Below are positions 1,047-46,120 of a stretch of 46,156 nt of DNA, one piece after another. The stretch is taken from contig CP070673.1 of assembly GCA_020351915.1 (NCBI GenBank), forward strand, positions 3,705,816-3,751,971, given 5' to 3'. Under the pieces are notes generated by a model that was not told the DNA's origin, made no database searches, and worked only from the letters and a program-made list of their open reading frames with translations. Source of the DNA: Deltaproteobacteria bacterium. GTDB lineage: Bacteria; Desulfobacterota; DSM-4660; Desulfatiglandales; B25-G16. The translations under genes and the position numbers were made by a program. Numbering within the stretch: the stretch's first letter is position 1; the number at the start of each line of letters is the position of its first letter.

Positions 1047-1094
1047 ACGACCAGTCAACAAAAATGAGTTACTACTGAGAGCATCAAATAGTTT

Positions 1095-1404
1095 AGTATC
1101 GTTCAAAGGTGTTTACTCAATGGTATATTGGTTACAGAACGTGTCCATAATTACCTCTATGAGGTCATGCCCATTTTCTCAAGGCGCTATCTATAAGCCT
1201 CAAGGGATGTGGTCACATATGTGGGGTTTAGATGAACCAGGTAAAGAATCCCAGGGCTTCATAGGTGTAAACCCCACATATGTGACCACTGCAAGATCCA
1301 GTGGAATTTTTTTTGAGATATCGCCTTTCAAAAACAGCTATGACCTCCTTTAGAACGTGAGCGATTACTCACTATGCTTCATACCAACACTTTTGAACGA
1401 TACC
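1095..1404 (+). mobile_element. MITE copy 1, 310 bp, with terminal inverted repeats and 8-bp target duplication
   Basis: The left end (GTATCGTTCAAAGGTGTT at 1096) and right end (AACACTTTTGAACGATAC, 1386-1403) are inverted repeats. The element lies between two identical 8-bp direct repeats AATAGTTT (1087-1094 and 1405-1412), the expected target duplication. The whole element is an imperfect palindrome: outer arms GAGGTCATGCCC...TTTTCTCAAGGCG face GAGGTCATAGCTG...TTTTTGAAAGGCG in reverse. The centre holds a perfect 22-bp stem (1209-1230 with 1268-1289) around a 37-nt loop. It has no transposase, so it must be mobilised in trans. A 77-codon open frame inside is not supported as coding: compared with copy 4, the differences do not concentrate at third codon positions. 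Confidence 0.88.
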
Positions 1405-1424
1405 AATAGTTTGCGATGTCGCGA

Positions 1425-1466
1425 TGGTCATGAGGTCTTTTCTGGTGAGAAAAGACCTCATGACCA
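1425..1466. repeat. Perfect 19-bp hairpin beside MITE copy 1
   Basis: TGGTCATGAGGTCTTTTCT (1425-1443), loop GGTG, then its exact complement (1448-1466). It lies just outside the right target duplication of MITE copy 1. No T-run follows on either strand, so it is not a standard intrinsic terminator. It may be a second small palindromic element; part of it (GGTCATGAGGT) resembles the arm of the adjacent MITE. The rest of 1467-1598 shows no gene. Confidence 0.75.
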
Positions 1467-1598
1467 CCCTGGAACCATCTCGGTTATGTCCAGTGCAAAC
1501 AATGAAATGCTCTGCTTAGTAACGTATCGAAGATCCTAAAAAAAAGTTGCAATCACTATAACCAACTGTTAACGTATCAGCGATTAAAATCCCTGTGG

Positions 1599-6231: not shown

Positions 6232-6369
6232 GCCCCTTAATTCCTGGCAAGGATAGAAAAAACACTTTTTAAATCGGGAGATCCTGTTATATAGTTATCA
6301 ACAGTCTTGGATTCTCCCGTGTTTTTAGTACAATAATCGCGTTTTGCCAATGTTGCAATCCAAATATTT

Positions 6370-6501
6370 CGTATCGTTCAGAAATATTGGCGGTCATTCT
6401 CGTCCAAAATAGACTACTGATGTAAATAAAACAGCCATGACCAATTATAGAACGTGAACGAGTACGCAGTATGGTTCATACCAACACTTTTGAACGATAC
6501 C
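6370..6501 (+). mobile_element. MITE copy 2, 132 bp, internally deleted
   Basis: The ends match copy 1: GTATCGTTCAGAAATATTGG at 6371 and CATACCAACACTTTTGAACG near 6478-6497. The right 75 bases (AACAGCCATGACC ... ATAGAACGTGAACGAGTACGC) align with the right arm of copy 1, but the central hairpin and left arm are missing. The flanks AAATATTT (6362-6369) and AAATAGTC (6502-6509) agree at 6 of 8 positions, a decayed 8-bp target duplication. The element occupies much of the 295-bp gap between plsY and the DUF3842 gene and may carry that gene's upstream signals. Confidence 0.82.
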
Positions 6502-6526
6502 AAATAGTCATATAAAGGGGGCTTCT

Positions 6527-10666: not shown

Positions 10667-10755
10667 GGGGCCATTTTAAATAAATCTTAGGCCTATTACA
10701 ATCTAATAAGAGCTCCGCGCTCTTGTTCTTGACTTCACCATGCCTTTAACATATT

Positions 10756-10799
10756 AGTATCATTCAGTATTATTCATGCCAATACCGTTGAACGATAAC
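10756..10799 (+). mobile_element. MITE copy 3, minimal 44-bp form
   Basis: GTATCATTCAGTATTATTCA joined almost directly to GCCAATACCGTTGAACGATA: just the two ends of the MITE family with nothing between. The left part matches the left end of copy 2, the right part the right end of copies 1 and 2. The flanks AACATATT (10748-10755) and AAAATATT (10800-10807) match at 7 of 8 positions. It sits between the dusB and macrodomain promoters. It is short, but the end sequences and duplication make membership convincing. Confidence 0.75.
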
Positions 10800-10843
10800 A
10801 AAATATTTCCAATCAAGAAATGTAAAAAAACTGGGAGGGATCC

Positions 10844-15235: not shown

Positions 15236-15333
15236 GACAGGATTAACAAGATTTACATGATTTCTGTGTATTATTTATGTCCTGACCTTCCCTGCCCGCC
15301 CGCCTCGCCTTGCGGACTCGCATGCCGGGCAGG
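15236..15333. repeat. Two dispersed-repeat ends between the tRNA-Ser genes
   Basis: GACAGGATTAACAAGATTTA (from 15236) resembles the GACAGGAT end of the repeat block at 25583-25831. Next to it, 15291-15333 is a GC-rich inverted repeat bounded by CCTGCCCG and GGGCAGG. Bases 15295-15324 are identical to the complement of 43773-43802 over 30 nt. No gene is in the 175-bp gap between the tRNAs. Confidence 0.7.
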
Positions 15334-15397
15334 TCTTTCCGGTCTAAAGACCTTCTTGCTACGAGCCACTCGTGAAATTTGGCAATGCCAAATTTCC

Positions 15398-18764: not shown

Positions 18765-18810
18765 TAACGTCAAAGTCCAGGGTATGGGTGCCTTTTTTTT
18801 GGTTATGCCC
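18765..18810. repeat. Dispersed repeat B, partial copy
   Basis: TAACGTCAAAGTCCAGGGTA, then TGGGTG, a T-run and GGTTATGCCC. This matches 45926-45972 at nearly every base. The opposite arm seen in the other copy (ACCCATACCC) is not found, so this one is truncated. The remaining 18671-19135 gap contains no supported gene; a 65-codon reverse frame over it shows no family features. Confidence 0.7.
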
Positions 18811-37776: not shown

Positions 37777-37951
37777 ATATTCGAGCAATGAGAAAAAAGC
37801 CACAAAATGCATTTTTCTTTGTACCGGGTTCTTTTCGGGGGTTTCGGATAGGCTCCGGGTGCCAGTATTCCACCAGAAAGCGAATGATCACAAAGACAGA
37901 AAGTGACGATTTCCCTTGACTTTGATTTATGGTTTCATTACACAGATATAA

Positions 37952-38130
37952 AGCGTTCAGGTGCTGGATAAGAGCTTAAAAGGGAACCCCGTTAAAATCG
38001 GGGACGGGCCCGCCGCTGTAATCGGGGACAAAAGCCGCAAGATGCCACTGTGCCGCTGGAAGCGGGATGGGAAGGCGCGGTAAGTAGGATGATCCGAAAG
38101 CCAGAAGACCTGCCTGAATGTTAGGCGTAG
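37952..38130 (+). ncRNA. Adenosylcobalamin (B12) riboswitch
   Basis: The conserved elements occur in order: GGTGC (37960), AGGGAA (37981), AAAATC, CCCGCCGCTGTAATC (the B12 box-type GCNRCTGT core), GATGCCACTGTG (GCCACTG), GGGAAGGCG, and the 3' B12 motif AAAGCCAGAAGACCTGCCTG (38098-38117). It binds adenosylcobalamin and represses the following receptor gene when B12 is abundant. Confidence 0.95.
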
Positions 38131-38178
38131 CCTTCGCGGACTGGGTTTAGCCTAAAGATCTTGCGGATAAAAAGGGAC

Positions 38179-38265: not shown

Positions 38266-40305
38266 GTGAAAAAGTTGAAGACCTTTTTTTTGTTTGGAAT
38301 GGTTGGCCTTCTAGGTCTCATGATCAATAGTGTTTATGCGATTGAAAATGAAGAGGATGTGACCTTAAAAACAGTTGTGGTTACTGGAACTAGGATCCAA
38401 CAGAGGATAGAAAAAGTGCCAGCAAATGTCACGGTAATCGACGAGGAAGACATCAAAAACTCAAACGCAAAAACGGTGGTTGATCTTCTCCGCTCTGAAG
38501 AAGGAATCGTTGTGAGAGACCTCTTGGGCCATGGGAAGACTGCTCAGGTAGATCTGCGGGGATTTGGAGAAACTGGCCCATATAATACGTTGGTTTTGGT
38601 GGATGGGCGCCGTGTAAATGAAATCGACCTGAGCGGAGTGGATTGGACACAGATTCCTCTGGAGCAGATCGAGCGTATAGAAATCGTTCGGGGGACCGGT
38701 ACGGTACTCTATGGGGATAATGCCGTGGGCGGCGTAATCAACATCATTACGAAGATTCCAACTGGAAAACTAACCGTTAGGGGGGGAGCACTTGCCGGGA
38801 GTTATTCTCGACACAAAGAACAGGCCTCTATCAGCGGCGGTCATAAGAATTTAGCTGCTTCTCTGTTTGCCAGTTATGATTCCACTGACGGATACAGGGA
38901 TAACGGGGAATTTCGGGCAAAGGATATAGGCGGAAAAATCGTTTTTGATCCTACTGAATTGCTAAGTCTCAACCTTAGCGGGTCGTATCACTCGGATGAC
39001 TACAGTCTTCCGGGTCCCCTTACAGAGGAGGAGGTAAACGTTGATCGAAGAGCAACCAATGAGCCCTTCAATGAAGCTGAAACCCGTGATAAGTACCTAA
39101 AACTTGAATCAAATCTGGACCTAGGACACTTCGGCAATATCCTAGCTGACTTCTCTGTTAGGGACCGCAACAGCGAACTGAAAGACGTAAGCGTCTTCGG
39201 CACTTTCCTTCAGGATATCGAGACAGAAACTTGGGCGATCACACCACGATATGTTTGGAACGGAGAAATCGCCAACCATGAAAACACGCTCATCGTAGGC
39301 GTCGATTTTTACTGGTCCGATCAGGACGTGAAATCATTTTTCGGAACCCCGCCGATACCCTCCGGTCTTGCAAACGTGGAAAAGAACTCTTCCGGCCTTT
39401 ATTTCAGCAATGAGTTTTCTTTATTGAAAAATCTAATTTTCTCTTTCGGGGCTCGCCGTGAACTGGTTGAGTACGACTTGATCAACCGACCTCTCACCGG
39501 TTTCCCGCTTCCGCCGCCACCTCTGTCGGATACAGTCAGTGAGAGACAGAATGCATTCAGCGCAGGACTCACTTTTCTCTACGGTGGTAAATCTTCTTTT
39601 TTTGTGCGCGCCAACCGAAGCTTCCGGTTTCCGCTCACTGACGAATTGGTCGAATTTGATCAGCTTACGGGGCAACCTCGCGTGAATTCAGATCTCAAGC
39701 CACAAAAAGGCCGACACTATGAAGCGGGCTTAAGACATTTCTTTGCCCCAGATCTAGTCGGGAGTGTCACCCTCTTTCGTGCGGAAATGAAAGACGAGAT
39801 CTTCTTGGATCCGACACCGGCACCCTTTTTCGGCACTAACGTGAACCACCCTGAGACCCTTCATCAGGGTGTGGAGATCGGTGCCAAGTCAGAGATTTTC
39901 GGGAAAATCACGCTATTCGGAAACTACACCTATGAAAAGGGAGCCTTCGAAAAAGAACCCTTTAAAGATAACGATATCCCGGCTGTTCCAAATCACAAGG
40001 CAAATCTGGGGATTAGAATCCACGACGTGTTTCCCGGCCTCATCTTCTCGGCCGATTACAAATACGTGGGATCCAGTTTTCTGATCAGCGACCAGGCTAA
40101 CGAGTTTGAGAAACTGGACGACTATGCCACGATCGATGCACGGCTTTCGTATGCCTGGAAGCGACTCAACGCGTTTGTCGGAGTGAATAATCTTACAAAC
40201 GAGAAGTACTCTCAATACGGTGTCATTGGGGGGACTCCCAAGGGTCGCAATTTCTATCCGGCCCCGGAAAGGAACTGGCTAGCCGGCCTCGATATCACCT
40301 TCTAG
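38266..40305 (+). CDS. btuB: TonB-dependent outer-membrane receptor, BtuB-like
   Basis: 679 residues from a GTG after AAAGGAGG. Signal peptide LKTFFLFGMVGLLGLMINSV, cleaved near VYA-IENEE. The TonB box/plug region follows: KTVVVTGTRIQQRI, VTVIDEEDIKNS, LRGFGETGPYNTLVLVDGRR and IERIEIVRGTGTVLYGDNAV, GGVINIITK. The rest is a 22-strand barrel ending in aromatic LAGLDITF, as expected for an outer-membrane protein. The B12 riboswitch directly upstream identifies a corrinoid uptake role. No btuCDF genes follow; a riboswitch-core relic does. Confidence 0.93.
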   Translation: MKKLKTFFLFGMVGLLGLMINSVYAIENEEDVTLKTVVVTGTRIQQRIEKVPANVTVIDEEDIKNSNAKTVVDLLRSEEGIVVRDLLGHGKTAQVDLRGFGETGPYNTLVLVDGRRVNEIDLSGVDWTQIPLEQIERIEIVRGTGTVLYGDNAVGGVINIITKIPTGKLTVRGGALAGSYSRHKEQASISGGHKNLAASLFASYDSTDGYRDNGEFRAKDIGGKIVFDPTELLSLNLSGSYHSDDYSLPGPLTEEEVNVDRRATNEPFNEAETRDKYLKLESNLDLGHFGNILADFSVRDRNSELKDVSVFGTFLQDIETETWAITPRYVWNGEIANHENTLIVGVDFYWSDQDVKSFFGTPPIPSGLANVEKNSSGLYFSNEFSLLKNLIFSFGARRELVEYDLINRPLTGFPLPPPPLSDTVSERQNAFSAGLTFLYGGKSSFFVRANRSFRFPLTDELVEFDQLTGQPRVNSDLKPQKGRHYEAGLRHFFAPDLVGSVTLFRAEMKDEIFLDPTPAPFFGTNVNHPETLHQGVEIGAKSEIFGKITLFGNYTYEKGAFEKEPFKDNDIPAVPNHKANLGIRIHDVFPGLIFSADYKYVGSSFLISDQANEFEKLDDYATIDARLSYAWKRLNAFVGVNNLTNEKYSQYGVIGGTPKGRNFYPAPERNWLAGLDITF

Positions 40306-43110: not shown

Positions 43111-43219
43111 ATTGCTTTTCTCCAATGGAATATTTCGGGGTGAATACACTGACGTACTTCAACCCTTATGATTCTCTATATACGCATGAAGGCTGCCGAA
43201 CATCTCAGCCCAATCTCTT

Positions 43220-43529
43220 GGTAACGTTCAAAAGTGTTGACATCAACCATAGTGAGTAATCCTTCACGTTCTAAAGGAGGTCATGGCTGTTTTTGAGAGG
43301 CGATATCTCAAAAAGAATTCCACCGGGTCTGGCAGTGGTCACATATGTGGGGTTTACACCTCCGAAGCCCTGGGAGTTTCCGCCTGGTTCATCTAAACCC
43401 CACATATGTGACCATCTCCCGTGAGATCTATAGATATCGCCTTGAGAAAATAGGCATGACCGGATAGGGGCAATTATGTGCACGTTCTCTAATGAATATA
43501 CCATTGAGTAAACACTTTTGAACGATACT
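43220..43529 (-). mobile_element. MITE copy 4, 310 bp, reverse orientation, with target duplication
   Basis: It is the reverse-complement counterpart of copy 1, with identical length. Ends: GTAACGTTCAAAAGTGTT at 43221 and AACACTTTTGAACGATAC to 43528. Flanks AATCTCTT (43212-43219) and AATCGCTT (43530-43537) match at 7 of 8 bases. The central hairpin is kept: 43336-43356 pairs perfectly with 43394-43414 around a 37-nt loop, even though the loop sequence differs from copy 1 at several bases. There are no indels relative to copy 1 in the central 234 bases. Confidence 0.88.
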
Positions 43530-43730
43530 AATCGCTTCTAAAGATACGACCCGGACTTACTATGAGTCAAGACCTGATTTGAACCTTTTCTCCTTCCTCA
43601 TAATTGAGGTGTTTGTCCATACGGCAGTGGACCTGCCAGTGCCATTCAAAACCGCTTCACTGAGTCCGTGCCGATGGAGAAGAGGGTCTCCCTCGTGGAT
43701 TTGCCCGTGATATTAAATTAGGACACAGAC

Positions 43731-43802
43731 CCGCCTGCCGTCCGGCGGGCAGGTTTTCGCCGACATGCCCGCCATGCGAGTCCGCAAGGCGAGGCGGGCG
43801 GG
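43731..43802. repeat. GC-rich dispersed repeat C
   Basis: CCGCCTGCCGTCCGGCGGGC forms a short hairpin. The stretch 43773-43802 (CATGCGAGTCCGCAAGGCGA and onward) is identical to the complement of 15295-15324 over 30 nt. Its GC content is far above its surroundings. The rest of 43530-43969 contains no recognisable gene. Confidence 0.75.
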
Positions 43803-45925: not shown

Positions 45926-46120
45926 TAACGTCAAAGTCCAGGGTATGGGTGTCTTTTCTTTGGATTATACCCTGTGACATGGCCCATTACCGGGTCGTTT
46001 CAAAATGGTTTATTGCGCCCTAAGCCTTAGAATCATAAGCTCCATCTATATAAACCATTTTGAAACGCCCACGAATCTATACTATGTGGGGGCATAATCA
46101 AAAAAAAGACACCCATACCC
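45926..46120. repeat. Palindromic dispersed repeat B, fuller copy
   Basis: The outer arms GGGTATGGGTGTCTTTTCTT (45941-) and AAAAAAGACACCCATACCC (-46120) are imperfect inverted repeats of about 32 bp that include GGATTATACCC/GGCATAATC. Inside, CGTTTCAAAATGGTTTA (45996-46012) pairs perfectly with 46051-46067. The left arm is shared with 18765-18810. Similar ACCCATACCC ends are often near IS200-type transposases, but no such gene is here. Confidence 0.72.

Follow-up and report, generated by a model that had tools for sequence, protein, structure and literature searches.

Non-autonomous elements with ISH6-type ends in a deltaproteobacterial genome, and the conserved hairpin they share with elements bearing other ends

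Prokaryotic MITEs may be moved in trans by a transposase that they do not encode; ISH2, for instance, is a MITE moved in trans by ISH8 (PMC10264941). Transcripts of the Correia elements are cut by RNase III (PMC10969869). The ISH6 family of insertion sequences (IS) is almost entirely archaeal; its single bacterial IS is ISDesp5 of an uncultured Desulfobacterium, and the target that the family (p-MULT 2) duplicates is AANATNTT, also at the ISDesp5 sites in Desulfobacterium (Guerillot et al. 2014, PMC3942029). A survey published in 2022 found ISH6 in 15 genomes only (PMC9208149). No MITE of the ISH6 family is described in the literature searched. The interior of MITEs is usually regarded as filler.

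Here, I describe elements found in a 46,156-nt stretch of a deltaproteobacterial genome, the whole of which is called the window. A first-pass annotation had proposed four bounded repeats with GTATCGTTCAAAAGTGTT ends and 8-bp duplications, and all four are found where it had placed them (Table 1). The flank identities that it gave for copies 1 to 4 (8/8, 6/8, 7/8 and 7/8) were reproduced and, when the flanks were read again, every left flank began with AA and three of the four right flanks ended with TT; all four left flanks have the form AA....TT. One base beyond GTATCG..., an R at the left end or a Y at the right, belongs to the element as well, as the coordinates of that annotation imply. 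Searching the window with the 18-bp end and up to 3 mismatches gave 6 matches, against 0.04 expected; the ends of the 44-bp copy are weaker, and it was detected only by a search with the 10-bp core of the end. No ORF of at least 80 aa lies within either full-length copy. Copy 1 sits inside a dispersed repeat, other copies of which run continuously across the position of the junction at many places. This repeat contains a hairpin, GGTCATGAGGTCTTTTCTGGTGAGAAAAGACCTCATGACC, and has dozens of copies in the genus.

Table 1. Coordinates of the elements and associated features in the window
Feature	Position	Strand	Remarks
MITE copy 1, full length	1095..1404	+	310 bp, including the outermost R/Y base
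Copy 1, left target duplication AATAGTTT	1087..1094	.	
Copy 1, right target duplication AATAGTTT	1405..1412	.	8/8
Copy 1, left terminal inverted repeat	1096..1113	+	
Copy 1, right terminal inverted repeat	1386..1403	-	perfect 18-mer, identical to the ends of the L125 IS
MITE copy 2, 132 bp	6370..6501	+	internal-deletion derivative; orthologous G001 site has 308 bp
Copy 2, duplications AAATATTT/AAATAGTC	6362-6369 / 6502-6509		6/8
MITE copy 3, 44-bp remnant	10756..10799	+	
Copy 3, duplications AACATATT/AAAATATT	10748-10755 / 10800-10807		7/8
MITE copy 4, full length	43220..43529	-	opposite in orientation to copy 1, 87% identical to it
Copy 4, duplications AATCTCTT/AATCGCTT	43212-43219 / 43530-43537		7/8
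Dispersed ~125-bp repeat enclosing copy 1	1070..1512	.	pre-insertion target is 1070-1094 + 1413-1512
Conserved hairpin core of copy 1, ~182 nt, model R1	1163..1345	- (modelled strand)	
Conserved hairpin core of copy 4	43279..43461	+	
Apical 22-bp perfect stem of copy 1 core	1209..1289	.	arms 1209-1230 + 1268-1289
Terminator-like sequence CCACTGCAAGATCCAGTGG AATTTTTTTT	1286..1314	+	stem overlaps one arm of the long hairpin

The window holds other repeated or structured sequences as well. The repeat TAACGTCAAAGTCCAGGGTATGGGTGYCTTTTYTTTGG occurs at 18765-18802, 45926-45963 and 46099-46120 (95% identical, partly inverted) and also flanks a MITE in a sister genome (L050). A pair of 41-bp GC-rich inverted repeats, CCCGCCCGCCTCGCCTTGCGGACTCGCATG..., at 15295-15335 and 43762-43802 (95% complementary), adjoins tRNA genes and MITE copy 4, and a cobalamin riboswitch (37942-38131, 115.6 bits) lies upstream of a 679-aa ORF at 38266.

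Throughout the genome (5.09 Mb) the end was matched 72 times (37 + 35), against 4 + 2 matches for the reversed control pattern. The excess over the 6 control matches, along with that in the window, excludes chance. With blastn, the 308-bp element found 51 pieces in the genome, and the places bearing it number about 40. When all fetched loci were scored consistently (103 end pairs), the duplication was identical at 7/8 positions or better in 65, of which 36 were 8/8, as compared with a mean of 4.3/8 when left and right flanks were re-paired at random. The consensus over the same pairs is AANNNNTT (A.89 A.93 NNNN T.93 T.89); each of its fixed positions thus stands at 89-93%, in agreement with the ISH6 target AANATNTT, the inner A and T of which are just weakly enriched here.

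The alignment of empty sites, run with the joined flanks as the query, gave exact and uninterrupted empty sites in sister genomes for six insertions. Among the insertions of the window's own genome, those at 2383035 and 3409546 both have an empty site in G002, and that at 3229176 has one in G004; an insertion of G003 is empty in G000 and G004, one of G001 in G000, and one of G004 in G002. An old insertion, at 4920796 of the own genome, is present in four genomes, in which its length differs. The family proposed in the first pass, of variable length and with 8-bp AA....TT duplications, is therefore upheld by further copies and exact empty sites: neither a lack of copies elsewhere in the genome nor relatives with the same flanks but no empty site at the orthologous loci was found. 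Terminal inverted repeats, target duplication, short length with no transposase gene, many copies and empty sites are all present, as befits a genuine MITE family. The serial internal deletion that had been read from the sizes holds for the 132-bp copy, since its ortholog in the sister genome G001 has 308 bp (C145:6711-7018) and this size class hence arose by internal deletion in place; the 44-bp copy, which also has 44 bp in a sister genome, is presumably another such case.

The first-pass annotation knew of no named family with these ends, a statement that does not survive the finding of complete ISs with an ISH6-family transposase gene between the same ends. When 84,980 species genomes were scanned with the 18-mer, the matches came almost only from deltaproteobacterial (Desulfobacterota) MAGs. 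One locus, L125, has two perfect ends that span 1,481 bp between their outer edges and enclose a 470-aa ORF, which scores 465.9 bits with the ISH6 transposase model NF041731.2 (cut-off 240 bits). An intact IS in the same genus (G002), 73% identical to the L125 copy, has type-A ends and a transposase of 478.4 bits. A third, in the same-family genome G009, has a transposase of 478.6 bits and type-B ends, GTAACGTTCAAAAGTTGAGG; a second subfamily of MITEs in that of the window has these same ends. The duplication is 7/8 at the G009 IS and merely 5/8 at the G002 IS. Five genomes of the order have ISH6 transposase matches above the cut-off, and in the window's genome the transposase is found only as decayed N-terminal fragments beside such ends. 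No relatives of the transposase were found on plasmids, and neither core nor ends in viral contigs. As the full-length window copies encode no transposase, the element is classed as an ISH6-dependent MITE and not as an ISH6 IS; nor is it a simple deletion derivative of ISH6, since its similarity to the two full-length type-A ISs ends after about 22 bp. The MITE family is a new representative of a kind that is itself known, and the ends that it shares with the ISs suggest that ISH6 transposases mobilise it in trans. In the intact G002 IS, a hairpin TTGTTTATAG..GCAGGAAATTTTCCTGTG..CACAGGGAAATTTCCTGC..CTATAAACAA lies upstream of the transposase gene (L172:1300-1436), similar to the MITE core in architecture and different from it in sequence; it might be a nested element, or else serve in regulation.

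The first-pass annotation recorded the variable internal length and missed the conserved core of the full-length copies. The centre of the full-length MITE is an imperfect hairpin of about 182 nt (z about -9 for the whole element, folded as DNA or RNA), and homologous cores occur in subfamily B and in other genomes. With ten diverse copies, RNAalifold predicts 50 pairs, 28 of them with compensatory changes. In an alignment of 49 cores from about 26 genomes, fitted to the structure, 94.7% of cells are paired, both partners have changed in 42 of 49 pairs, and covariation scores 0.527, as compared with 0.173 after shuffling and at most 0.10 with the partners slid. A structure-blind alignment of the same cores gives essentially the same hairpin, with 37 pairs common to both strands. 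Of the order's 85 genomes, 32 contain the core (26 at E <=1e-17), in up to 80 or so copies. Elsewhere in the phylum the model found it in none of 285 genomes, and Rfam 15 has no match for it, even with lax filters. Runs of N in the assembly of the window's genome begin at or inside MITE cores (L016, L019, L024, L027-L029), and contigs of G083 and G056 often stop about 130 bp into the element, as if the hairpin broke assemblies.

A rival reading is that the compensatory changes arose without selection. Quasi-palindrome correction, that is, template switching between the arms, can perfect palindromes, and the core would then be an inert stuffer; the arms are indeed long and near-perfect, and many copies are in decay. 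Although the strongest of the rivals, this explanation is unlikely, and several features of the core run against it. Over about 26 genomes, asymmetric internal loops and particular mismatched columns have been retained and not corrected away; the cores hardly vary in length (180-187 nt for the most part, with about 200 nt in a few genomes); a homologous core persists while the surrounding ends and spacers change; and G-U exceeds A-C on one strand. In the fitted alignment there are 113 G-U against 29 A-C cells on the modelled strand, and 56 against 27 on the pairs found in both orientations, the sequences being related. The excess, a modest signal among related copies, speaks for a function of one of the strands in single-stranded form. 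Stems of the A subfamily change at a lower rate than its loops (5.8 vs 9.6%) and double changes number 27 against 7.8 expected, while about half of the single stem changes in individual copies break a pair, from which it follows that many copies are decaying. This is the pattern to be expected if selection acted on active lineages while dead copies decayed, and the hairpin would owe its retention to something that the single strand does when folded.

The same core is carried by MITEs with different ends, and this is the new aspect of the family. In G083, G074 and G056 it lies in elements of about 260 bp with GTAAGTTCTCAATAA ends (113 end matches in G083, none in the control), the 8-bp duplications of which lack the AA....TT form; the core of G067 and G051 lies in elements of about 254 bp with GTAATATTTTAGC ends and 8-bp duplications of their own. 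A fourth end type, GTGTCTCGTAYCATA, is probably that of G018 and, once, of the window's genome (L250). On the tree of the cores the end types cluster, with 3 changes for 4 types, a count in which L250 and L257, whose flanks show other ends, are not taken as ISH6-ended; core and ends have thus mostly travelled together, yet the ends have changed. No autonomous IS was found for the GTAAGTTCTCAATAA ends: ten of the larger ORFs near lone ends were housekeeping genes or had no family, and none was a transposase. Nor were transposases found for the other end types. In G046 (L281-L286) and G040 (L270-L272), cores form part of a longer repeat, ACCCAAGGA..core..GGATTGGGCCTGCCTTTTACGGCAGAG, whose flanks are shared and which lacks clear ISH6 ends.

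Could the core be a separate mobile element, inserted into several unrelated MITEs? Its presence in ISH6-, GTAAGTTCTCAATAA- and GTAATATTTTAGC-type MITEs, and also in places without clear ends, would agree with this, as would a core-less element in G076 (L058), though deletion could explain the latter. But neither a target duplication of the core's own nor a constant border is seen, and the core clades follow the end types, so that co-inheritance with occasional end change fits better than free hopping. Free insertion of the core is on the whole improbable.

The view that the MITE is mainly a portable transcription terminator fares worse, and I consider it very improbable. Both full-length window copies do have a stem and T-tract, pointing to the upstream gene. 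However, insertions show no preferred orientation relative to genes (38/83 vs 32/83 loci), and a terminator-like element is present in at most 22 of the 49 diverse cores, the T-tract being absent from more than half; a terminator on every core is rejected on the latter count. With orientation random and the T-tract missing in most cores, a termination role is not supported, and is refuted as a function of the whole family. Least credible of all, to the point of being almost negligible, is that the ends stem from another 8-bp-duplicating family (e.g. IS66 or IS256) and resemble ISH6 by chance: other IS families do make 8-bp duplications, and core-bearing MITEs with GTAAGTTCTCAATAA ends do exist, for which the transposase search came up empty, but three complete ISH6 ISs bear exactly the present ends, of which the two subtypes, GTATCG..GTGTT and GTAACG..TTGAGG, correspond to the own-genome MITE subfamilies A and B, and the AANNNNTT duplication equals that of ISH6.

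To conclude, these are very probably non-autonomous elements mobilised in trans by ISH6-family transposases, with an older, order-wide hairpin as their full-length interior. An ISH6-family (Mutator-like DDE) transposase would recognise the shared ends of about 18-22 bp (R-GTATCGTTCAAAAGTGTT) and excise or copy the element, which would insert at AT-rich AANNNNTT sites with duplication of 8 bp. The transposase genes are by now decayed in the window's genome, leaving roughly 40 copies stranded or awaiting a new ISH6. Many copies have probably lost their interior by deletion; that of the full-length copies is a structured hairpin and not a deleted transposase gene, its core belonging to a hairpin family that is older, order-wide and carried in MITEs with several different ends.

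That the structure is kept across the order, one of sulfate-reducer-like bacteria, and with different ends, suggests that the hairpin has an importance of its own. What selection maintains is, as a best guess, a structured RNA or single-stranded DNA that helps the element itself to survive. By analogy with Correia, the likeliest function would be that of an RNA hairpin in read-through transcripts, which may render insertions tolerable or processable. More tentatively, and with somewhat less than an even chance of being right, the 182-nt core may be a previously undescribed, order-specific structured element, for which MITEs with exchangeable ends serve as packaging. A large, stranded population of bacterial MITEs is here tied to a transposase family hitherto known from hardly any hosts but haloarchaea, and the retention of long hairpins by bacterial MITEs becomes testable, be it for mobility, host tolerance or RNA function.

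The present case agrees with the ISH6 family in the transposase of the partner IS, a AANATNTT-like 8-bp duplication and the size of the IS, about 1.45-1.6 kb, but the elements themselves lack a transposase gene and their interior is an unrelated hairpin. Like ISH2 and other prokaryotic MITEs moved in trans, they are short and gene-less, carry IS ends and would be cross-mobilised; the IS family involved is a different one, and the interior here is a conserved, covarying structure common to MITEs with other ends. With the Correia/NEMIS elements of Neisseria they share the nature of intergenic hairpin MITEs in many copies; in Correia, however, it is the terminal repeats that are cut, whereas in the present elements the hairpin, better conserved across genera than any other part, forms an internal core and persists while the ends differ.
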